Positions 1,509 to 37,858 of a stretch of 37,858 bases of DNA are shown here, piece after piece. Each line of letters begins with the position of its first letter. The stretch's first letter is position 1. The position numbers were made by a program, and so were the translations under genes. Source of the DNA: a virus; IMG/VR virus record IMGVR_UViG_3300044535_000098, positions 1-37,858 of that record. The stretch is one strand, 5' to 3'. Below the pieces are notes generated by a model. It saw only the letters and a list, made by a program, of their open reading frames with translations. It was not told the DNA's origin and ran no database searches.

Positions 1509-1575
1509 CGTGTGTCTCCCTGCATGGCCATCTTTATGTTTACTCACCTCACCCTCAAGTTAGGGTCAGCAAAAC

Positions 1576-1627
1576 CCTTCCTCAGGCCCCTAAACCCCCC
1601 TTTAGGGGGGTAGGGGCTTGAGGAAGG
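1576..1627 (-). terminator. Large hairpin, terminator or attenuator before gene 933-1508
   Basis: Two arms of about 22 bp pair around a TTTA loop, with one G-T wobble and a two-base AA bulge. On the minus strand the stem is followed by GTTTTGC, a short T-run, so it can act as an intrinsic terminator or attenuator between the winged-helix gene and the gene at 933-1508. The outer arms are copies of the CTTGAGGAAGG repeat, so it may double as a protein-binding site. Confidence 0.6.
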
Positions 1628-1697
1628 TGTTTGACCTAACTTTTATACTCACCTTTCCTCAAGTTTTCCTCAGGTTGAAACGCAGCTTGAGGAAGGT
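1576..1697. repeat. Cluster of CTTGAGGAAGG inverted repeats
   Basis: Five copies of a roughly 11-base unit lie within about 120 bases, in both orientations. CCTTCCTCAGG is at 1576-1586, CTTGAGGAAGG at 1617-1627, CCTTTCCTCAAG at 1652-1663, TTTTCCTCAGG at 1664-1674 and CTTGAGGAAGGT at 1686-1697. The last three lie inside the 3' end of the winged-helix gene, the first two in the following leader. The layout resembles iterons or operators placed at the end of a DNA-binding protein's own gene. The binder is inferred, not shown. Confidence 0.6.
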
Positions 1698-2255: not shown

Positions 2256-2885
2256 TTAGACCTCACCCTGCATCTCCTCATTGCACTCGCCGCAGACGAG
2301 CCGCATGCTGGCCTTGGCCCACGCCTTGTCGCCGCAGCACGGACAGGTGAACTTGACCTTGCTCAAGTCTTTCTTCTTCTCGGCGGCGGCTCTCGGCTGC
2401 GTGAAGTACGGGAGCGTGAAGCCGCTGGCCAGCAGGTTCTGCAGGGACACCTCGAAGGCTCCACCCTCTTCGACGTAGTGCGTCATCTGGCGTCCCGTCT
2501 GCTTGCCGCCCGGCTCGCCCGTGTTCGACGGGATGAGGCCCACGCGCTCCATGAGGGTAACCCACTCCTTGTTGTGGTTGCCCTTGGAGCCGGGCGTGCC
2601 GTACTCCTGCTGCTCCAGATGCGTCATCTCGTGGACGAGGGTCGACAGGACGGCGGCCAGCGTGCGGTCCATGCTGTCGGGGTTGAGGGCGATCTCATGC
2701 GTGTTGTCGCCGTCCTCGCGGTGCTTGAACTGCTCGGCCCAGAAGTAGCCGTGAGCCTTGCGCTTGCGGGTCAGCGTAAAGAGAACCGACGGCAGGCGGT
2801 GGCCGAACAGCTCCTTGTTGAAGTGGTTGAAGGCGGCGTCGAGGTTAGCGTAGGTCTCGGCGGTCGGTGTCTGGTAGTTGGTCAT
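2256..2885 (-). CDS. SprT-like zinc metalloprotease
   Basis: The product has 209 residues. The N-terminal region (TYANLDAAFNHFNKELFG) and the motif HEMTHLEQ near residue 86 match the SprT/Spartan family, in which HExxH binds the catalytic zinc. Other expected signs are HGYFWAEQF upstream and a C-terminal zinc ribbon: CPCCG near residue 180 and CGEC near 198. Cellular Spartan proteins cut DNA-protein crosslinks. The substrate of phage SprT-like proteins is not known to me. The ATG at 2885 follows the leader ACTAGCAAACAAGGGAGACCACC, which is shared with two other genes. It lies in the replication operon, which fits a DNA-linked role. Confidence 0.85.
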   Translation of the reverse strand: MTNYQTPTAETYANLDAAFNHFNKELFGHRLPSVLFTLTRKRKAHGYFWAEQFKHREDGDNTHEIALNPDSMDRTLAAVLSTLVHEMTHLEQQEYGTPGSKGNHNKEWVTLMERVGLIPSNTGEPGGKQTGRQMTHYVEEGGAFEVSLQNLLASGFTLPYFTQPRAAAEKKKDLSKVKFTCPCCGDKAWAKASMRLVCGECNEEMQGEV

Positions 2886-2908
2886 GGTGGTCTCCCTTGT
2901 TTGCTAGT
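2886..2908 (-). promoter_or_regulatory. Shared translation leader (ACTAGCAAACAAGG), copy before the SprT-like gene
   Basis: ACTAGCAAACAAGG (2908-2895) followed by GAGACCACC leads to the ATG at 2885. The same leader occurs before genes 2916-3203 and 8242-8469. Here the upstream promoter half is absent, because the DNA above encodes the end of the previous gene. This copy acts as a ribosome-binding leader only. Confidence 0.7.
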
Positions 2909-2915
2909 GGTTGGA

Positions 2916-3203
2916 TTAGGCTGCGGCAGGCTGGGGACGCCACAGGTAGATGTCCTTTGCAAACTCAACCTGTCTTTTGTAGCCGCGCTCCAGCATCTGC
3001 TCCTCGGTGTAGATGCTGTCGGCGTTGATGCCGCTGAAGCACAGGTTCGGGCGGCGCTTCTTTGCCAAGTTCATGGCGCGGCGCACGGTGTCAGCCTCGA
3101 CGGCGACCGAGACGAAGTAAACGGTCTTAGGTGCGTCGCCGAAGCCGTACTCGGCGGTGTTTGCGTTCATCGTTTTCGAGGACATAACGTAGTAGGCGGT
3201 CAT
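2916..3203 (-). CDS. Small protein under its own early-type promoter
   Basis: The product has about 95 residues and starts MTAYYVMSSKTMNANTAEYG. There are two in-frame ATGs (3212 and 3203). I choose 3203 because it sits at the same distance from AAGG as in the two sister leaders, and the SprT-like gene has no ATG at the position matching 3212. The body has strand-like KTVYFVSVAVEA and a basic stretch AKKRRPN. No family is recognised. A clear promoter plus leader precedes it, so it may be expressed earlier or more strongly than its neighbours. Confidence 0.7.
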   Translation of the reverse strand: MTAYYVMSSKTMNANTAEYGFGDAPKTVYFVSVAVEADTVRRAMNLAKKRRPNLCFSGINADSIYTEEQMLERGYKRQVEFAKDIYLWRPQPAAA

Positions 3204-3206
3204 GGT

Positions 3207-3267
3207 GGTCATCCTTGTTTGCTAGTTCGTAGGAGCAGGTATAAAGCATGCTCCGTACGATGCAACA
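3207..3267 (-). promoter_or_regulatory. Promoter and leader cassette, leftward copy
   Basis: Read on the minus strand: TGTTGCAT (3267-3260), 14 bases, TTTATA (3245-3240), 12 bases, then the 21-base leader at 3227-3207 that starts AACTAGCAAACAAGG. TTGTTG and TTTATA are 17 bases apart, a reasonable sigma70 promoter. The copy at 8179-8238 on the other strand has the same words and spacing. The 11-mer TGCATCGTACG (3264-3254) lies between the -35 and -10 boxes, where a bound protein would block or aid RNA polymerase. Confidence 0.65.
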
Positions 3268-3297
3268 ACAAAATTGACGGATGAGCAAATAAAATAT

Positions 3298-5613
3298 TCA
3301 CACCTCATCGTGGCTGATCCAATCCCCCTGCACCACGACGGCCACCTCGCGCCCCTGCCTCGGGTCGGTCACCCGTTCGATGGCCAGCACGCCCGTCTTG
3401 ATCCACGTCTTGACGATGGACGATACCTTGGTCTTGCCAGCCTTCTCCGTGATGTCGATGTCCAGCAGATCGGCCACGGCGAGGCCAACCCAGCGCTTCG
3501 ACTGCACGCTCTCCCGGTACGGGTCGCCGTCCTCCAGAGCGTTGGCCACGATCCGCTGGATGGTGCGCGCGTCCTTGCCGCTGACACCGTCGAATGCGTC
3601 CGGCAGCTTGTAGGGCGTACAGACGCCGACCCACTCGCCGTTGGCGATCTGTACGCCCACCATCTTGCGATACACGGCGGCGCTGGCCGGAGGCGCGAGG
3701 TTCGCTTTCGCGTCGTCGATCCGCATGATCGACTTGGCCTCCGACGGGTCGATCCCGAGGCGCACAGCCTCGTCCTCGGTCATGCGGTTGATGACACGCG
3801 CCGACCGCACGGCACCGATCAGCGAACTGGCACCGCGCACGCTGTCCACGTCCACGCTCTCGCCGTTGGCCTTGCGTGTGTGATGCACCAAGCAGATCGC
3901 GCAGTCGGTCTCGTCGGCCACCTTCCTGATCTCGGCCACGATGGCGTTCATGGCCACGTTGTCGCTCTCGTTGGCGTTATGGCAGCCCACGAACGGATCG
4001 ATGTAGACCATGCCGATGTTCTTCTCGCGGATCTTGTCGATCATGTACTTGACGAGGGCCGCGTTCGGGATGAGGCCGTCCTTGGTCTGCGTGCCGAACT
4101 TCATGCTGAACTCGCGGCCAGCGTTCAGGAACAATTTCCCGCGCACTTCGTCGGGCGTGACGCCGTAATACTTCATTGTGGCCAAAATGCGGCGCTGCAT
4201 TTCCTCCATCGGGTCTTCGAGGTTTATGAACCAGACATTGCACTGCTCATGCACAGGCTCGCCCAAGAGCGGCTTGCCCGTGGCGATGGCGATACCCTCT
4301 GCCGTCTGCTCCGACGTCTTCCCGCTGCTCCCGGCGGCGGCCAGCATGCTGGTGAACTTACGCAGGTAGGACGTGCCGTAGATCCAGCGGCGCACGGGGA
4401 TGCTGGCCTCGTCGAAGGCATCGAACAGCGTCGGCCAATCCGGGGCCGCTGTGGGGGCATCCGGCGTGTCGAAGGCGTCTAGGTCTAGGAACTCGTTGTC
4501 GTCGCTGGCAGTGGCCTCCTGCGTCGCCTGCGGTGCGATGTACTCGAAATCGTCCATGCCGTTCTCTGGCACGTCGTTGGCGGCGGCTGTCACGGGGTTG
4601 ATCTCGGCACCGTAGGCACGCACAGCCTTGTCGAAGTCTCCGTCGTGTTCGTAATGCACAAACAGATCGAAGGCGTCGCCCCAACAGTAGGCGCTCTCGC
4701 CCAGCGACTTCGGCCTGCCTACGCCAGCGGCTGCGTCTGAGCCTGACATGCTGACCCAGTGGTCGCCGAAGTCCTGCGTCGCGTAGCTGGGGCTGGTCTG
4801 GTAGCGTGAGCGGTAATGCTTTGAGGCTCCCTGCCGCTCGTACTGGTAACGCAGGAGCAGGTCGCCGATGTCGTGGTCAGCGTTGAAGGCGTCCACCGGG
4901 CTGACTTGATCTGGAAACTTCTGCCGACGCTCGGCACGCTGGCGCTCACGCTCTCGGCTGGCGATCTGCGCCTGCTCGGCGGCGAGGCGATACTGCTCCA
5001 GCCTGCGGTCGATCTCCTGCCGGATCGGGCTGTCGTCGATGCGGAGCGTCTTGGCCCGGATGATGCGCTGCTCGTAGAAGATCGGGCTGAGATCCGGGTT
5101 GCGTTTATCCAAGGGCACGTTGGGCAGGTAGATCGGTTGCCCGCAGCGTGCCAGCGCGCCGTCGGGGTGTACGCCGTTCAGGTGCATCAGATCGAAGAGG
5201 GCAGTCTGGGCCAACTCATACTCGGACCCCGTCAGCACGCCCATGACGGGGATCAGCACGCGCCACTTGCGGTTCTCCGGGCTTGCACCCGAGGACGAGT
5301 AGGCGAGCAGGCTCACAGGCCCGCAAATAGCCTCCACGGCGGCCAGCACGTCGTCGAGGCTGGGGTTGCCCCGGTCGATGTCGAGGGCCAGCATGCGGTA
5401 CGCCCCACGCTCGCGCTGTGCGTCGTGTGCCCGCCCGTCATGCTCACGGTAAGTTGATGGGATGAAGAAGTCGGCGTCCTGCTTCTCCTTGGCCTGCGGG
5501 TTGGCGACCAAGCGGGCAATGTCGGCCCAAGAGATGCCGGGGTATGTCTGGCCGGGCCTGTCGATGAGCGTGAAGCGGGAGCCGGGAGCCGCCAAGAAGC
5601 GCACGTCAGACAT
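3298..5613 (-). CDS. Primase-helicase: N-terminal primase-like domain, RepA-like hexameric helicase, C-terminal winged helix
   Basis: The product has 771 residues. The N-terminal third has a DxD motif (LALDIDRGNPS, near residue 78) followed by YSSSGAS...KWRVLIPV, the pattern of archaeo-eukaryotic-type primases. The middle has Walker A GSSGKT (near 428), then FINLEDP, Walker B GMVYIDPFVG (near 538) and LVHHTRK, typical of RepA/AAA_25 hexameric helicases. The last 70 residues are a winged helix repeated in the stand-alone protein at 1636-2124. It should unwind and prime phage DNA. No phage DNA polymerase is visible, so host polymerase III is presumably used. AAGGA lies 8-9 bases before the ATG at 5613. 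Confidence 0.85.
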   Translation of the reverse strand: MSDVRFLAAPGSRFTLIDRPGQTYPGISWADIARLVANPQAKEKQDADFFIPSTYREHDGRAHDAQRERGAYRMLALDIDRGNPSLDDVLAAVEAICGPVSLLAYSSSGASPENRKWRVLIPVMGVLTGSEYELAQTALFDLMHLNGVHPDGALARCGQPIYLPNVPLDKRNPDLSPIFYEQRIIRAKTLRIDDSPIRQEIDRRLEQYRLAAEQAQIASRERERQRAERRQKFPDQVSPVDAFNADHDIGDLLLRYQYERQGASKHYRSRYQTSPSYATQDFGDHWVSMSGSDAAAGVGRPKSLGESAYCWGDAFDLFVHYEHDGDFDKAVRAYGAEINPVTAAANDVPENGMDDFEYIAPQATQEATASDDNEFLDLDAFDTPDAPTAAPDWPTLFDAFDEASIPVRRWIYGTSYLRKFTSMLAAAGSSGKTSEQTAEGIAIATGKPLLGEPVHEQCNVWFINLEDPMEEMQRRILATMKYYGVTPDEVRGKLFLNAGREFSMKFGTQTKDGLIPNAALVKYMIDKIREKNIGMVYIDPFVGCHNANESDNVAMNAIVAEIRKVADETDCAICLVHHTRKANGESVDVDSVRGASSLIGAVRSARVINRMTEDEAVRLGIDPSEAKSIMRIDDAKANLAPPASAAVYRKMVGVQIANGEWVGVCTPYKLPDAFDGVSGKDARTIQRIVANALEDGDPYRESVQSKRWVGLAVADLLDIDITEKAGKTKVSSIVKTWIKTGVLAIERVTDPRQGREVAVVVQGDWISHDEV

Positions 5614-5691
5614 ATGCGCGATCCTTGATATTCGTTGATTTGGACTGTATGGTTTTCATGGAACTTGCTCCTCTCGGTTCCGTTTTGATTA

Positions 5692-5723
5692 GGCCCCGGC
5701 GTGTTTCTCCCCACGCCGGGGCC
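5692..5723. terminator. Perfect hairpin between ssb-like and primase-helicase genes
   Basis: GGCCCCGGCGTG (5692-5703) pairs perfectly with 5712-5723 around an 8-base loop. No long T-run follows on the minus strand (TAATCAAAA), so it is probably a partial terminator or an RNA-stabilising structure. It would let the SSB gene be expressed more than the downstream helicase gene. Confidence 0.5.
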
Positions 5724-5732
5724 GTTCTATTC

Positions 5733-6377
5733 TCAGAACGGGATATCGTCGCCCAGATCGTCGGCAATCGATTGACGCTTCTGCTCGGAGAGACCCTTCT
5801 TCTCAAACGGGTCGTCCTTGGGCGTGACGGTCTCGAAGTCGTCCAGCCCGTTGCCGCCGTAGACAGCCTCGGTCACCTGCACGGCGTCCAAGAGCAGGCT
5901 GATGCCGCCCATGCCCTCGGGGTCCACCACGGCCACCGCCCAAGCGCGCACGGTGCCCTTGGAGCCGCCCCAGAGCGCGAGATCCGCCAGCGGCTGCTTC
6001 TGCCCGTCGATCACGGTCGGTGCCGCGTTGGCCGATCCATCCTTCTTGGTGCCGTTGCGCTTGGCCGCGAAGCGAACCATGCCCGTCTCGTTTCCGCTGG
6101 CGTCCTTCACCTTCTTCATGCCGAAGACCTTCGCGAACTGCGGCATCTTCGGGCTGCGTGCGCGGGAAGCCTCGTAGTGTGCCTTCAGCGCGTCGTAGAT
6201 CGGCTTGGCATCCTCCTTCGGCATTTCGACCTCAACCGACCACGCGGCGTTGGATGCCGTCGGGGCGCACGGCTCGCTGGCCTGCTTCTGGGTGTTGAAC
6301 CGATAGGTCTGGTTCAGCTTGGGGTACTGCAGGGTGCCCTTCATCAGCACCTTCAGGAAGTCATCATTGTTCGCCAT
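5733..6377 (-). CDS. Single-stranded DNA-binding protein (DUF2815-like)
   Basis: The product has 214 residues. It begins MANNDDFLKVLMKGTLQYPKLNQ, a pattern of DUF2815-type phage ssDNA-binding proteins with an OB fold. It ends in an acidic tail closing with DDIPF, the docking peptide of bacterial SSBs that recruits host DNA-metabolism proteins. It lies between the RecE-like nuclease and the primase-helicase, as expected for a replication and recombination SSB. The tail is seen directly. The DUF2815 assignment is from memory of the N-terminal pattern and overall size. Confidence 0.8.
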   Translation of the reverse strand: MANNDDFLKVLMKGTLQYPKLNQTYRFNTQKQASEPCAPTASNAAWSVEVEMPKEDAKPIYDALKAHYEASRARSPKMPQFAKVFGMKKVKDASGNETGMVRFAAKRNGTKKDGSANAAPTVIDGQKQPLADLALWGGSKGTVRAWAVAVVDPEGMGGISLLLDAVQVTEAVYGGNGLDDFETVTPKDDPFEKKGLSEQKRQSIADDLGDDIPF

Positions 6378-6400
6378 TGGTATCTCCTCTCGGCGTGGGG

Positions 6401-7213
6401 TTAGAAGTCGATCTGTTCATCGAACACATCGTCCTCGGCTCGGTCCACCTGCCACCGGGGCAGGTCAACATGGTTAATCAAAGGCCAGCCCGTTTGGAAG
6501 GTGTCAAATGCCTCCGCGCGGCTGATCTCTTCGAGGGTCGCCGTGACGCGCATGTCGGCGACGGCGAGGTATTCTTCGGTCAGTTCGTGCAGGCCGACGG
6601 CGAAGGGTGCCTCCTTCTCAACGGCCACAAAGATGAACGATCTGGCCTCATAGCCAGCCGCACGCAGGCAGCGCAGGTAGAAGGCCGCCTGCAGGTCGTA
6701 ATTGTAGCCACGGATCTCGCGCGGGAAGCCGCTCGGGCTGGCGTCACGCGTCGTCTTGATGTCGAACACGACGCCATGCTCCTGCAGGTAGCCGTCCGGG
6801 CGGCACTTGATGTTCACGCCAGTGATCGGGTCGGTGGCGAAGAAGTTGGCCTCGGCGACAAAGGTCTTGTCGATGAGGTAGCGGGCCACCACGGGGTGTG
6901 CGCGCGTCTCCTCGGCGATCTTCTCGGCCAGATCGAAGTCGGCCTCGGTCAGGAGGATCTTGCCGTCCAGATCGGCGGCGAGTTGCGCCTCCTTCCACTT
7001 GTTGCCCCGGCGATCCTCGGGTCCACGCAGGACGAGGCTCTTCTCAGGCTCCAGCACCAGAGCATGCACGGCGCTGCCCAAGGCGAAGGCCGGGCTGGCC
7101 TTGTAGACCTTCGCCTTCCAGTGGGCCAGCGACTTGGCTGCCACCGCCTTCACGTCGCTGGACGAGATGTTCGGGTGGGCGTGGTATTCTTCGTTGGTCA
7201 TGTCGCGGATCAT
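6401..7213 (-). CDS. RecE-like PD-(D/E)XK exonuclease (DUF3799-like)
   Basis: The product has about 270 residues from the ATG at 7213, which overlaps the stop of the RuvC-like gene as ATGA and follows AAAGGGGAA. The N-terminal NEEYHAHPNISSSDVKAV is typical of RecE/DUF3799 nucleases. The catalytic core shows RPDGY (near 136) and VFDIKTTRDAS (near 152), giving the D...DxK metal site, then a conserved YDLQAAFYLRC helix. Such enzymes resect double-stranded ends for single-strand annealing. No RecT or Red-beta-like annealing protein is visible, so the SSB or a host protein may be the partner. Confidence 0.8.
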   Translation of the reverse strand: MIRDMTNEEYHAHPNISSSDVKAVAAKSLAHWKAKVYKASPAFALGSAVHALVLEPEKSLVLRGPEDRRGNKWKEAQLAADLDGKILLTEADFDLAEKIAEETRAHPVVARYLIDKTFVAEANFFATDPITGVNIKCRPDGYLQEHGVVFDIKTTRDASPSGFPREIRGYNYDLQAAFYLRCLRAAGYEARSFIFVAVEKEAPFAVGLHELTEEYLAVADMRVTATLEEISRAEAFDTFQTGWPLINHVDLPRWQVDRAEDDVFDEQIDF

Positions 7214-7647
7214 TGCTTCCCCTTTCCGTAGAGTGCGATCAATGCAGCCTCGGCCCTGCCGTCGTCCTTCACCCGCGCCCACTGGTCGGCGCTGTCGGGG
7301 AAGAATTGGCTGGCCAGCGCGCGGCTGGCGTTCTTGTCCGTGGACAGCCGCATGTACTTCTTCCACGCGGACGGATCGACCTCAAACGTCGGCACGCCCG
7401 CGAAGAACAGGCACGCCTTCAGTTCACCGTACGCGACAGCGATGGTGACTGCATTTTTGATCCCTATCATTCTTGGAAAATAGGGTCGCTCCAGCCAAGC
7501 GCATTTGACCTTTCCGATATCCGCGATCAGCGCCAGCTTCTCGTCCAGCGTGCCGGGCATGTCATATGTAGCGACCCCCATCTCGTCGCAGTCCAGCAGC
7601 GCGAATGCTCCGCTCTTGCCGGGGTCGATGCCGAGGATCAGGGTCAT
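7210..7647 (-). CDS. RuvC-like Holliday junction resolvase
   Basis: The product has 145 residues. Motifs are ILGIDPGKSGAFALL near the start (first Asp), WLERPYF near residue 51 (Glu) and KDDGRAEAALIALYG near 128 (last acidic residues), which form the RNase H-fold active site. Phage RuvC-like enzymes resolve branched DNA before packaging. Its stop overlaps the next ATG as ATGA and its own start overlaps the upstream stop, so it is translationally coupled to both neighbours. Confidence 0.85.
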   Translation of the reverse strand: MTLILGIDPGKSGAFALLDCDEMGVATYDMPGTLDEKLALIADIGKVKCAWLERPYFPRMIGIKNAVTIAVAYGELKACLFFAGVPTFEVDPSAWKKYMRLSTDKNASRALASQFFPDSADQWARVKDDGRAEAALIALYGKGKQ

Positions 7648-7913
7648 GCTTCACCCGTCGCAATCTCGCCGCCGCAGGCCAGATAGCCGCAGCCGTCGAT
7701 CCAGTTGTCCGCGTGGGCCGGGTTCGACTTGGCGCGGGCCAGCTTCAACAACGTCATCATCACGGCCACGTCGTGCGCGGTCACGATGGTGTCGAGGTGC
7801 GCGGTCCAGTACAGGGCGATGAGGTTGAAATTGCTCTCCGCGTCGCCGTGCGTGGCGTCCCGATCCTTGGTGACGTACGCCTTCGCCGTGTCCAAGATCT
7901 CGGCGCGGTTCAT
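7644..7913 (-). CDS. DUF6378-like protein
   Basis: The product has 89 residues from the ATG at 7913, chosen over GTG at 7919 because AAGGGGA is 8 bases upstream and the ATG overlaps the regulator's stop as ATGA. The sequence RDATHGDAESNFNLIALYW, then VAVMMTLLKLARAKSNP and DNWIDGCGYLACG, matches the DUF6378 pattern seen in many phage genomes. The HGD...N and D..ID..GY arrangement resembles MazG-like all-alpha pyrophosphatases, but no activity is known to me. Confidence 0.75.
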   Translation of the reverse strand: MNRAEILDTAKAYVTKDRDATHGDAESNFNLIALYWTAHLDTIVTAHDVAVMMTLLKLARAKSNPAHADNWIDGCGYLACGGEIATGEA

Positions 7914-8110
7914 TTCCACGTCCCCTTGTCGCGCAGGCTGTCAATCCCGGTGATCTCAGCCAGCCTGTTGCGGTATATCGCGCCGGGCGTGATGTTGTTC
8001 TGCATCCATCTCGACATGCTGGATTTGGCGACTGGAACTTGGTCTGCGATCCAGCCAAGCTTGCGCCCGCCGTCCGCCGCCCACTGTCTGATTTGGTCTT
8101 GAGCCTTCAC
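7910..8110 (-). CDS. Small HTH regulator, Cro or repressor-like
   Basis: The product has 66 residues from a GTG at 8110 preceded by AGGAGG. It is mostly one helix-turn-helix: KLGWIADQVPVAKSSMSRWMQNN with a following basic segment. It is the first gene of the leftward replication operon and is divergent from the rightward early operon, the place of a switch regulator. Two small dyads overlap its own promoter. No integrase is present, so it may set early/late timing rather than lysogeny. The HTH is a pattern call. The role is inferred. Confidence 0.75.
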   Translation of the reverse strand: MKAQDQIRQWAADGGRKLGWIADQVPVAKSSMSRWMQNNITPGAIYRNRLAEITGIDSLRDKGTWK

Positions 8111-8137
8111 GGCGTCCTCCTGTGCTTCGGTTCGATC

Positions 8138-8171
8138 TGTCTATTTGTGAAATAATTTTGCGTCAAGCGCA
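8138..8171 (-). promoter_or_regulatory. Promoter of the leftward replication operon with candidate operators
   Basis: On the minus strand TTGACG (8166-8161), 17 bases and TAGACA (8143-8138) form a sigma70-type promoter before the HTH gene. Two dyads overlap it: TATTT-GTG-AAATA (8142-8154) over the spacer and -10, and TGCG-TCAAG-CGCA (8159-8171) over the -35. These are natural sites for autoregulation by the small HTH protein. No binding data exist. Confidence 0.5.
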
Positions 8172-8178
8172 TTTTTTC

Positions 8179-8238
8179 TGTTGCATGCGGTGCTGCAGGC
8201 TGTATGGTGGTCACACTAACTAGCAAACAAGGATGACC
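8179..8238 (+). promoter_or_regulatory. Promoter and leader cassette, rightward copy (early operon)
   Basis: TGTTGCAT (8179-8186), 14 bases, TGTATG (8201-8206), 11 bases, then the 21-base leader at 8218-8238, identical to the one before gene 2916-3203. The order and spacing match the leftward cassette at 3207-3267 almost exactly. The -10 is weaker (TGTATG) and the 11-mer is not preserved (TTGCATGCGG instead of TTGCATCGTACGG). It should drive the rightward early operon. Confidence 0.65.
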
Positions 8239-8241
8239 CAG

Positions 8242-8469
8242 ATGACCCTCCGCCAGATCAAGATGGACCTCGACGGCCTCTACATCAAAACCTACAAAAC
8301 CGAAGAGAACCTCATGAAGCGCATTGACGCGGACCGGGACATGTACCCGGAATACAACGACCGCTTTATGGTGGTTCGTACGCCGAATGGCCGCTGGACT
8401 GCCATCGTGCAACTCGACAAATCGACGGGCGGCTACGTTGGCCGCTACGACGGCTTCATGACGATCTGA
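8242..8469 (+). CDS. Early operon protein 1, unknown function
   Basis: The product has 75 residues from the ATG at 8242. An in-frame ATG at 8233 lies too close to AAGG, and the sister leaders favour the later start. The sequence runs MTLRQIKMDLDGLYIKTYKTEENLM and ends in strand-like segments (MVVRTPNGRWTAIVQLD, GGYVGRYDGFMTI) that suggest a small alpha/beta fold. No family is recognised. As the first gene after the early promoter it may act on the host. Confidence 0.7.
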   Translation: MTLRQIKMDLDGLYIKTYKTEENLMKRIDADRDMYPEYNDRFMVVRTPNGRWTAIVQLDKSTGGYVGRYDGFMTI

Positions 8470-8473
8470 CCGC

Positions 8474-8602
8474 ATGACCGACCTCGAACTCGAACTCAAC
8501 AGGCTTGGCATTATTGCCAAGCCAGCACCCCGCCCCCAGCCAGCGGCCTACGCGCCGCCCCAGTGGAAACCAACTTACCCCGGCGAAGAGCCGCCGTTTT
8601 GA
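8474..8602 (+). CDS. Micro-protein, Pro-rich, 42 residues
   Basis: ATG at 8474 starts 4 bases after the previous stop and ends at TGA 8602. The protein begins MTDLELELNRLGIIAKPAP and then turns proline- and tyrosine-rich (PPQWKPTYPGEEPPF). The acidic and leucine-rich start and Pro-rich tail look like a short helical plug plus an unstructured tail. There is no strong Shine-Dalgarno, so translation would rely on coupling. No family is recognised. Confidence 0.5.
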   Translation: MTDLELELNRLGIIAKPAPRPQPAAYAPPQWKPTYPGEEPPF

Positions 8603-10439: not shown

Positions 10440-10915
10440 CTGACGAAAAACTGATCGCACGGCTGCGGTATGCTTGTTACTTGGCCTTTGATGACGGGAC
10501 CAATGACTTCGGAACAGCACCCGAAGCCGCCGACCGCATCGAGGCTCTGACCAAGGAGCGGGATGAGGCTGATGACCTTACCAAGGCTGCATTTGCGGAC
10601 GGGGCTTCGAACAACATCAGGCTGGCTGAGACATCATACCGCGTTAAGTGGCTTGAAGCCAAGCTGGCGGAGTGCGAGGCACGACTTAGTAAGGCGGTGG
10701 AGTTGCTTGAGGCGTGGGGCGATGTGGCTGTGCATTGCAGCATTGAAGAGGGCGTCTGCTGCTGCGGAGATAACATGGAGAACCATACTAATCCGATGGA
10801 CTGCGGACATACGCCGCTCGATCACGGCACTTACATTGCGGGGCATTTGGAAGAGACTACCCGCTCCACCCTCGCAGAGATCAAAGGAGGCAATGATGCC
10901 AAGAGCGATTTGTGA
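10436..10915 (+). CDS. Hypothetical protein with coiled coil and Cys/His cluster (repeat-family member 1)
   Basis: The product has 159 residues from ATG 10436 (ATGA overlap). It has AADRIEALTKERDEA near residue 36, a coiled coil through WLEAKLAECEARLSKAVELL, then a Cys/His-rich stretch (HCSIEEGVCCCGDN...HTNPMDCGHTPLDHGTY) that could bind zinc, and ends STLAEIKGGNDAKSDL. The modules AADRIEAL, LEAKLA and LAEIKG recur in the next two genes, suggesting duplication. The last codons also hold the Shine-Dalgarno of the next gene. Confidence 0.65.
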   Translation: MTDEKLIARLRYACYLAFDDGTNDFGTAPEAADRIEALTKERDEADDLTKAAFADGASNNIRLAETSYRVKWLEAKLAECEARLSKAVELLEAWGDVAVHCSIEEGVCCCGDNMENHTNPMDCGHTPLDHGTYIAGHLEETTRSTLAEIKGGNDAKSDL

Positions 10916-11231
10916 AGACTGCGGGTCTCTGGTTGAAGCGGAGTTGACGCACAATGGTATCTGCGCCGTTGGCCATTACGTTCACTGCGGCTGGGGGCAT
11001 CAACTGTCGCCAGATGACCTAATCTCAGATGACGTAGCCGAAATCATCTCAAAGCTCGAAGCCAAACTGGCGAAGACGGTGGAGGCGTTGGAGAAGATCG
11101 CAGGCGTCAAAGGCCCCTACAGTCACCCGTTTCCTGAGGCCAGTGAAGGTTATGGTGCGTTTGCCATTGTGACCTCCCGCGAAGCCCTCGCAGAGATCAA
11201 AGGAGAGATCAAAGGAGAGAGCCATGAGTGA
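10896..11231 (+). CDS. Hypothetical protein with N-terminal Cys pairs (repeat-family member 2)
   Basis: The product has about 111 residues from the ATG at 10896, 5 bases after AAAGGAGG. The ATG at 10893 is too close. The start PRAICEDCGSLVEAELTHNG and later VGHYVHCGWGHQLSPDD carry a CxxC and a His/Cys set, so a small zinc-binding fold is possible. The middle has KLEAKLAKTVEALEKIAG and the end REALAEIKGE, modules shared with its neighbours. It overlaps the previous gene by 20 bases in another frame. No family is recognised. Confidence 0.65.
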   Translation: MPRAICEDCGSLVEAELTHNGICAVGHYVHCGWGHQLSPDDLISDDVAEIISKLEAKLAKTVEALEKIAGVKGPYSHPFPEASEGYGAFAIVTSREALAEIKGEIKGESHE

Positions 11232-29489: not shown

Positions 29490-30223
29490 CAGGAAATCCT
29501 CAGGAATACGGTTGTGTTGTAGCGACTTGCGCCCCCGTTGATGGCAGCGTAGCCCATAGCCCTCCATGTGCCGGATGGCTGGGCACCCCAGCCAGCACTA
29601 ACAACTTCCGCAGCAGTGCTGGCAGTGCTGGTGATACCAACACCAGCATAATAAAGGTTTGCGCCTGATCTGGTGTCGCCAGCGTTTACTGTCGCGTTTG
29701 TGTTTTCAGACAGAAACGCATACGTCCCAACAGCGCCCACCCCCAGCCCTGCCGTCGCCGTGCCGACCTGCCCACTGGTGATGGTGGTGACCGTCGATGC
29801 GTTTGTGGCGCTTGTGGCACTTGTGGCCGTTGCAGCGTTTCCAGAAATGCTAATGCCCCAAGTGCCAGAGGCCCCAGTACCCGTGAGCGGTGCCTTGGCA
29901 TCCAATTGCGTCTGAATGGCAGACGTGACGCCGTCAACAAAATTCAATTCGGCAGCCGTAGCAGTCACGCCGTCCAGAATGTTCAATTCAGCCGTGGTGG
30001 CAGTCACGCCGTCCAGAATGTTCAACTCGGCAGCCGTCGAAGTGACAGCCGTGCCGCCGACCTTCCACTGGCCCGCCGTCAGGTTCGGCTTGATCGCTGT
30101 CGTGCCGTCGAGCAGGTCATCGATCTTGTCCATGTCCTCATTCAGCTTGGTGCCCCAAGTGCTTTCGGATGCGCCAACCTCGGGCTTCACAAGGCCGTAG
30201 GTGGTGGTTGTCGTGTCAGCCAT
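29489..30223 (-). CDS. Tail fibre protein 2
   Basis: The product has 244 residues. The N-terminus ([20 protein letters not shown]) is followed by a repeated segment [16 protein letters not shown] (residues 61-101), typical of phage tail fibres. The C-terminal 75 residues (AVGTYAF...TWRAMGYAA...LRIS) share pattern with the C-terminus of the second fibre at 31186-32100, so they are likely the same domain. The gene upstream is the repeat protein at 30232-31122, the gene downstream the assembly chaperone. Confidence 0.75.
29920..30043 (-). repeat. Repeat inside tail fibre 2
   Basis: Three in-frame units encode about 14-residue repeats reading AELN(I/F)(L/V)DGVT, residues about 61-101 of the fibre. 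The DNA copies are close to identical for parts of each unit. Such units are common in fibre shafts and may vary in number by recombination. Confidence 0.7.
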
Positions 30224-37487: not shown

Positions 37488-37858
37488 GCGTCGTCACCCT
37501 CGGCCTGCGGTGTGGCCGTCGCGTCGATGACTATGCCGCCGTCGCGGTGCTTCTTCAGCGCCTCCAGATGCAACTGGTTCACGTTGATGGTCACCGTCGG
37601 GCCGCCGTTGTTCTGACGGAAGCGTGAGGGGTCGTTGACCGACGACAGCCACTTGCGAACGTCGATGCGCTCCTTGGCCACCGCGACCTGCTCGCGGGTG
37701 ATGTTGGCCACGCTCGCCATGCCGTCGGCGATGTCGAGGGCCTCGTCGGCCAGCCTGTCGGCGTACTCGCTGCGGGCCTCTAGGATAACCGCCTTGTAAT
37801 CCGGGTGGGCATTCAGGTGGCGGCTCAGGTAGCTGCGGCTGCAGCCCAACTCAGTCGC
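37484..37858 (-). CDS. terS: Terminase small subunit, C-terminal part (5' part at 235-1)
   Basis: This is the 3' part of the gene split at the junction. It reads from the HTH (GCSRSYLSRHLNAHPDYKAV) through EARSEYADRLADEALDIADG to VRKWLSSVNDPSRFRQNNGG, and ends with a strand (PTVTINVNQLHL) and an acidic tail (TPQAEGDDA). The last part may bind terL. Bases 37732-37858 repeat 1-127, so the gene is complete only on the circle. Confidence 0.85.
   Translation of the reverse strand, partial: ATELGCSRSYLSRHLNAHPDYKAVILEARSEYADRLADEALDIADGMASVANITREQVAVAKERIDVRKWLSSVNDPSRFRQNNGGPTVTINVNQLHLEALKKHRDGGIVIDATATPQAEGDDA
37732..37858. repeat. Terminal redundancy, right copy (identical to 1-127)
   Basis: It is identical to bases 1-127. 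It marks the circle closure and should be removed before counting genes or repeats. Confidence 0.9.

Follow-up and report, generated by a model that had tools for sequence, protein, structure and literature searches.

Phage genomes are mosaics, and why their joints fall where they do remains an open question. One short joint can be followed in the 37,858-nucleotide (nt) stretch of viral DNA that makes up positions 1 to 37,858 of IMG/VR record IMGVR_UViG_3300044535_000098, here called the window. A short sequence stands before three different genes in this window, twice behind a promoter-like element and once on its own. What does this sequence do, and why does it stay nearly invariant among related, uncultured phages in which the gene behind it changes? 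The best reading of the sequences is that it is an 18-nt 5′ untranslated leader, carrying the ribosome-binding site, of early-operon mRNAs that would start at promoters of the host sigma70 type. Probably, it doubles as a junction for the exchange of single genes.

A promoter-plus-leader module occurs twice in the window

The elements of the two modules, A and B, and of the third leader are as follows.

2895-2908, minus strand: third leader copy, promoterless (14-mer ACTAGCAAACAAGG), followed by GAGACCACC-ATG, before the SprT-like gene
2909-3226, minus strand: 318-bp leader-plus-gene unit, present in the window and absent from relative L006
3213-3230, minus strand: leader A, ACGAACTAGCAAACAAGG, matching the group consensus; predicted +1 at 3230, Shine–Dalgarno AAGG at 3216-3213
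3238-3265, minus strand: predicted promoter A; -35 TTGCAT at 3265-3260, 16-nt spacer, -10 TATACC at 3243-3238, no T at -7
8159-8171, plus strand: dyad TGCGTCAAGCGCA with conserved pairing (8159-8177 with the T run that follows), a box peculiar to B promoters that looks like an operator or a terminator
8179-8208, plus strand: predicted promoter B; -35 TTGCAT at 8181-8186, 16-nt spacer, -10 TATGGT at 8203-8208, T kept at -7
8215-8232, plus strand: leader B, ACTAACTAGCAAACAAGG, one mismatch from the group consensus ACGAACTAGCAAACAAGG; predicted +1 at 8215, Shine–Dalgarno AAGG at 8229-8232

An earlier, sequence-only reading of this DNA had described two copies of a promoter plus leader on opposite strands and a leader alone before the SprT-like gene, and both observations hold exactly. 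The composite pattern TGTTGCAT-N14-T[TG]TAT[AG]-N11/12-AACTAGCAAACAAGG occurs precisely twice in the window (8179-8232, plus strand, and 3213-3267, minus strand). The identical 21-mer AACTAGCAAACAAGGATGACC lies at 8218-8238 (plus) and 3207-3227 (minus), so that the two copies span 8179-8238 and 3207-3267. The 14-mer marks the third leader, and the window holds no further copy of it when up to three mismatches are allowed.

In 40 first-order Markov sequences with the length and composition of the window, scored for direct and inverted repeats, the longest repeat measured 14-19 bp (usually 15-17) and never reached 21 bp. The element TGTTGCAT was rejected as a significant motif by itself, as it has 16 matches with at most one mismatch where 29 are expected. 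The pattern therefore owes its significance to the leader and to the fixed spacing, and the same arrangement in more than 100 related viral contigs confirms it. An origin by chance or faulty assembly might be entertained for just three copies in a metagenomic record, but the 21-bp repeat exceeds all simulated ones, the arrangement recurs in those contigs and a scan of bacterial genomes yields just two chance matches in coding sequence. The relatives have already refuted such an origin, and we give it practically no weight. The first 127 bp of the window are also perfectly repeated as its last (1-127 and 37732-37858), which indicates that the record is probably a complete genome, either circularly closed or terminally redundant.

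The leader is near-universal at one site and accessory at another

The sequence-only reading had expected the cassette to recur in relatives, and it does. Scanning viral contigs with the 18-mer returned at least 119 stretches, and at least 93 sites were left after removal of duplicates. Nearly all of these read TTGCAY, 16 nt, a TATGGT-like hexamer, 6 nt, ACGAACTAGCAAACAAGG and ATG. Among the matches listed in an exact scan with the 14-mer, most of those with high GC content share the same promoter-like context.

Two surveys were independent of the leader. When only the upstream half of the promoter was used as query, each of the 33 distinct sites had the leader at an unchanged offset (identical in 24, with at most one mismatch in 28). 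When relatives were gathered solely by similarity of their exonuclease, the 65 loci at site B had leaders with 0, 1, 2, 3 and 4 mismatches in 35, 9, 9, 3 and 5 cases, respectively. The leader is thus present in about 61 of 65 loci: 56 have no more than 3 mismatches over its 18 positions, and another 5, with 4 mismatches, hold a form with a one-base deletion. The remaining four scored 6 or 7 mismatches, at or near chance. At site A, the leader is present in 6 of 30 such relatives, and the other 24 scored 7-8 mismatches. The gap between the helicase gene and the gene at 933-1547, where module A lies, measures 65-184 nt in 28 of 60 loci (not de-duplicated) and 541-1824 nt in 32. Site A is an accessory insertion site, and site B is near-universal. 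The proposal of one duplicated cassette must be amended accordingly: a promoter-plus-leader module is indeed common to the relatives, but its two sites are not equivalent. Records hold 1-3 leader copies (17 records), and in eight, the window included, both modules face outward about 5 kb apart.

Searches beyond this group located no source. In 84,980 bacterial and archaeal species genomes the 18-mer had two matches, both coding and by chance, and a 94-nt consensus matched nothing in INPHARED and gave no genuine match among PLSDB plasmids; derivation from host genes or plasmids was rejected on the basis of these scans. The leader region matched no known RNA family, and a literature search on the 14-mer returned no match.

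In a second set of phages (L231, L238, L251, L275 and others; GC 0.31-0.50), TTGACA-N17-TATAATANACACNTAC promoters recur, as many as 4 to a stretch. Behind each lies an A/C-rich leader of variable sequence, and the set probably represents a promoter regulon of its own. Because just 8 of 156 leaders in this set are identical, we rejected the idea of a single conserved element shared by unrelated phages; the identity in those few looks convergent.

Linkage between promoter and gene breaks at the leader

We refer to the position of the first gene behind each leader as a slot. The genes that define the slots in the window are as follows.

2256-2885, minus strand: SprT-like protein, 209 aa (Pfam PF10263, E 4e-10), behind the third leader
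2916-3203, minus strand: gene gA, 95 aa, PHROG 25600 (no assigned function), occupant of slot A, with a leader on both sides
7910-8110, minus strand: small helix-turn-helix (HTH)-like protein of 66 aa; its divergent gene anchors slot B on the left and is the first of the replication operon
8242-8469, plus strand: first gene of the plus-strand operon, 75 aa, no assigned function, occupant of slot B
8474-8602, plus strand: second gene, which anchors slot B on the right and is conserved (47 of 62 relatives, median identity 90%)

The anchors of slot B are stable. The HTH-like gene lies about 305 nt upstream of leader B on the opposite strand in most relatives. The occupant is not: a homologue of the first gene in the window is found at that position in 4 of 62 relatives. 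Mean pairwise identity at site B is 0.978 for the leader (a value biased upward by the search), 0.67 for the -35 and -10 elements, 0.55 for the discriminator, 0.53 for the spacer to the ATG and 0.30 for the gene.

Mantel tests over 82 non-redundant B sites locate the change. Among upstream segments the correlations are 0.39 (HTH-upstream box), 0.59 (box-core) and 0.42 (core-discriminator), all with p 0.002, whereas every upstream segment compared with the spacer or the gene gives about 0 (p>0.18). Spacer and gene correlate at 0.11 (p 0.002). Promoters that are at least 95% identical precede different first genes in 12 of 15 pairs, and near-identical genes follow promoters of less than 0.7 identity in 31 of 53. 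In these sequences, therefore, linkage breaks at the leader: the promoter segments are linked to each other and not to the gene that follows.

The 141 open reading frames behind the leader fall into 46 first-gene families, six of which occur at A in one contig and at B in another, with up to 97% nucleotide identity (L183 versus L105). On the right, the stop codon of the first gene usually overlaps the next start, most often as ATGA. Inversion of the 5-kb replication segment between the inverted leaders was considered as a route of exchange between A and B; there is no sign of it, and the SprT gene is always on the A side.

Whole leader-plus-gene units are present or absent between close relatives

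The 318-bp unit at 2909-3226 is absent from L006, although its flanks are 91% identical over 80 nt upstream and 96% over 300 nt downstream. In L006, leader A runs straight into the GAGACCACC-ATG that begins the SprT gene, and the window has the same junction behind its third leader. L205 likewise has the SprT-like gene directly behind leader A. The promoterless third leader in the window is thus explained as the right-hand end of a leader-bounded unit. L134 and L001 differ by one 172-bp unit of the same kind, with 100% identity over 200 nt upstream and 97% over 300 nt downstream.

The leader extends from a predicted transcription start to a ribosome-binding site

In more than 100 viral contigs the group leader ACGAACTAGCAAACAAGG spans the interval from the predicted +1 of a sigma70-like promoter to the Shine–Dalgarno sequence AAGG. 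An ATG lies 8-11 nt past AAGG in every one of the 138 group sites whose leader has no more than one mismatch. An in-frame upstream ATG adjoining AAGG (the first of AAGGATGACC) is kept in 62 of 97 sites and replaced in about a third. The constant spacing, together with the dispensability of the upstream ATG, identifies 8242, 3203 and, by the same rule, 2885 as the true starts, in agreement with the three start codons assigned by the sequence-only reading. In the predicted message, the leader is mostly unpaired (probability 0.77 versus 0.51 for random windows). It is A/C-rich and asymmetric and lacks the dyad usual for a recombinase core.

The leader is not tied to its promoter. It stands without one in the third copy of the window, in L144 and in L196, and behind other promoter types in L003, L010 and L130. 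The cassette described by the sequence-only reading therefore exists as a shared module, but its leader part persists independently. In distant relatives (L003, L130, L110, L031 and L074; helicase 47-48%) the leader lies behind other promoters or, after TAATCCA, inside operons, the latter arrangement resembling the third copy of the window. That distant relatives retain the leader without its promoter indicates that the leader outlasts the promoter in evolution.

Promoters A and B belong to different families

Refinement under sigma70 spacing gives TTGCAT-N16-TATGGT for B (8181-8208) and TTGCAT-N16-TATACC for A (3265-3238). The predicted promoters have the layout of sigma70 promoters (-35 and -10 hexamers 16-18 nt apart and a purine as +1 6-8 nt further on), with TTGCAY-N16-TATGGT, a 6-nt discriminator and a conserved A as +1 in nearly all 93 sites. 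They lie too far from the E. coli consensus for a simple promoter scan. Over 82 non-redundant B sites the -10 element is TATGGT in 46 and TATTGT in 17, and 96% of B promoters keep the T at -7. In Alphaproteobacteria most sigma70 promoters lack this T and may need CarD (PMC8407463). B promoters, with their T, would suit strong, CarD-independent early promoters.

Upstream of the B promoters, a dyad TGCG-N5-YGYA has 3-4 of its 4 pairable positions in 65 of 82 sites. It is complete (all four positions) at none of 15 A promoters. Changes within TGCGTCAAGCGCA in relatives often preserve pairing through G-T. The dyad with its T run (8159-8177) is a candidate operator for the 66-aa HTH protein, or a small terminator.

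Mean identity of the -35 and -10 elements is 0.44 between A and B promoters and 0.67 among B promoters. Within a genome, the A/B core identity is 0.25 (ungapped) in the window, 0.72 in L067 and 0.44 in others. A gapped identity background for the A-B upstream regions (0.71) was judged uninformative and left unused. The A and B promoters are different allele families.

Explanations for a conserved leader before changing genes

We reasoned that the leader would let whichever gene comes next be translated and that its near-invariance points to an additional role, that of marking the left edge of a slot in which single genes are exchanged. If recombination took place across the leader, or across the leader and the next few nucleotides, it would join the resident promoter to incoming genes and would move genes between slots A and B; tandem leader repeats would allow whole leader-plus-gene units to be gained or lost, as at 2909-3226. 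The agent may be the exonuclease and annealing protein of the phage itself. We consider this dual function of the leader, as early-operon ribosome site and exchange junction, the likely one. The sequences directly show the conserved leader, its position, the linkage break, the units that are present or absent and the families common to both slots; the start of transcription, its early timing, recombination and the enzyme behind it are inferred. Several observations weigh against it. The stretch shared without mismatch measures about 18-33 bp, close to or shorter than the minimal pairing segments quoted for RecA (31-34 bp) and Red-beta (23-27 bp) (PMC3945230). Exchange may therefore need wider similarity in the promoter or in ATGACC; alternatively, swaps may be illegitimate and the leader preserved by selection. 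The Mantel tests do not fully correct for relatedness. In L064, L219 and L220, moreover, what stands behind the promoter is an altered leader and another 5′ region with its own ribosome-binding site, which implies that the leader is not indispensable.

The main rival holds that selection on translation and transcript initiation alone maintains the leader, while genes are swapped by illegitimate recombination anywhere and the surviving swaps are those that keep promoter, leader and start codon. An unstructured, A/C-rich leader with a Shine–Dalgarno sequence is what this would produce, and A/C-rich leaders of a similar kind, some with the same 14-mer, also occur in unrelated phages whose promoters read TTGACA-N17-TATAAT. 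In those phages, however, the leader varies freely (8 of 156 identical). This accidental control indicates that function alone does not demand near-identity, and the tandem leaders and leader-bounded units better fit copying through a repeat. Selection alone therefore strikes us as rather improbable. The sequence-only reading favored joint control of distant genes from a duplicated early cassette, which would act through one phage or host regulator. The -35, -10 and leader are common to both sites at the same spacing, and the two modules face outward about 5 kb apart in eight records; set against this, the upstream regions of A and B fall into separate families, A promoters lack the B dyad, the insertion at A is optional and the A/B core identity within a genome is not consistently raised. 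Joint control is weakened by these findings, and we regard it as unlikely.

A specific RNA- or DNA-binding factor of phage or host, either a translational regulator or a site-specific recombinase, might also keep the leader invariant. Conservation does reach into positions for which no pairing with 16S rRNA is expected (the ACGAACTAGC part), a like argument having been made for the SAS of cluster K phages (PMC3203893). Of those genes in the window that were scanned with PHROGs, though, none was recognized as coding for a recombinase or an RNA-binding protein, and the asymmetric leader lacks the usual core dyad; we think such a factor very improbable. A bolder extension of the exchange-junction reading is possible but doubtful: the identical 5′ untranslated region would be a dedicated adaptor, with the phage group sharing one pool of single early genes and the uniformity of the leader kept by exchange itself, or by a recognizing factor, rather than by the needs of expression. 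Any unit would then be usable at either outward-facing slot, since each starts with the same leader and often ends in the ATGA overlap.

Seen in this way, the leader resembles a constant socket that accepts one small gene or another, with the promoter ahead of it changing as well. More than 100 natural examples of this short joint, with a resident promoter on one side and dozens of different genes on the other, together with pairs of close relatives with and without a unit, make exchange borders directly measurable. The slot also points to about 46 families of small, mostly uncharacterized early genes. Such genes may often serve host takeover or counter-defense.

Genes around the modules and probable host

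Between the outward-facing modules lies the replication and recombination operon (3298-7919, minus strand, about 5 kb), with module A following the primase-helicase gene and module B adjoining the divergent HTH-like gene.

3298-5613, minus strand: primase-helicase
5733-6377, minus strand: Gp2.5-like single-stranded DNA (ssDNA)-binding/annealing protein
6401-7213, minus strand: exonuclease
7210-7647, minus strand: Holliday-junction resolvase
7644-7919, minus strand: DUF6378 protein

The 66-aa HTH-like protein has no PHROG or Pfam match, and six proteins scanned for defense-related first genes had no PADLOC match. The closest portal is that of Octadecabacter DB virus 2 (39%) and the closest N-terminal helicase half that of Roseobacter CRP-8xx phages (48%). 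These affinities suggest a Rhodobacterales host, and the group probably consists of podovirus-like phages of that order. Inheritance of the cassette from the CRP-8xx lineage was rejected, the corresponding gap in CRP-831 having neither promoter nor leader despite the same gene order.

Other features were noted in passing. A strong hairpin (CCCCCCTAAAGGGGGG core within GCCCCTA...TAGGGGC, about 1548-1635, minus strand) separates the A insertion from the gene at 933-1547 and is a possible terminator of the accessory module. In L064, L219, L220 and L399 (minus strand, behind promoter B) the changed leader leads into a GC-rich, probably structured 5′ region (AGCGCAGAGCGCGGCAATCCTGCC) followed by gene MTVSLSSACLAIALADERG with its own ribosome-binding site; in L399 the joint with this region falls within the leader. 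Elsewhere in the window, CTCGCAGAGATCAAAGGAGA units are repeated at 10869-10888 and 11185-11220, positions 11064-11208 match a Manatee Spring phage contig at 88% and a 26-bp direct repeat, GCAGTCACGCCGTCCAGAATGTTCAA, occurs in the structural region at 29961-29986 and 30000-30025.

Comparison with known systems

Morons are accessory genes that sit between core genes and bring a promoter of their own. Site A resembles them in having a predicted promoter, leader and accessory genes between the helicase gene and the gene at 933-1547 in about half of the relatives, but differs in that its leader is common to the universal early promoter.

Phage Rad52-like recombinases carry out relaxed homologous recombination, giving mosaic exchange at short or diverged homology (De Paepe 2014, PMC3945230). 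As judged from its genes, this phage likewise encodes an exonuclease and an ssDNA-annealing-type protein; the homology here is a fixed regulatory leader, not diverged flanking genes.

The PeSL of T4-type phages (Arbiol 2010, Comeau 2014) are mobile regulatory cassettes, composites of promoter and terminator that are dense in hyperplastic regions (PMC4503421). They share with the present module an early promoter motif next to which small genes can be exchanged and which has been proposed to mediate modular shuffling. The B box, TGCGTCAAGCGCA-TTTTTT, may resemble a small stem-loop before a promoter; it is present at most B sites and absent from A. The differences are that the exchange border here is the 5′ untranslated region and ribosome-binding site downstream of the promoter, that A modules lack the dyad, that one or two fixed slots are used and that the genome is not that of a T4-type myovirus but measures 37.9 kb, with a podovirus-like portal and two slots.

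The SAS and ESAS of cluster K mycobacteriophages are, with PeSL, the closest known systems: a short asymmetric repeat with a Shine–Dalgarno sequence lies just upstream of the ATG of diverse non-structural genes (PMC12699233). SAS is a 13-bp sequence, GGGATAGGAGCCC, with 11-19 copies per genome in actinobacterial phages, and its extension is a 17-bp inverted repeat (PMC12699233). Like these, our leader carries its Shine–Dalgarno sequence just upstream of the ATG (8-11 nt after AAGG) of diverse families (46), is absent from the host and sometimes has a further conserved element upstream. Unlike SAS, the leader ACGAACTAGCAAACAAGG has 18 nt and is unrelated to GGGATAGGAGCCC at a limit of two mismatches, occurs in 1-3 rather than 11-19 copies, mostly before first genes, and begins where a sigma70-like promoter is predicted to start transcription; a linkage break and exchange between slots were, besides, measured for it here. 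The module works like SAS/ESAS and PeSL but belongs to neither, differing from them in sequence, copy number and order of elements.

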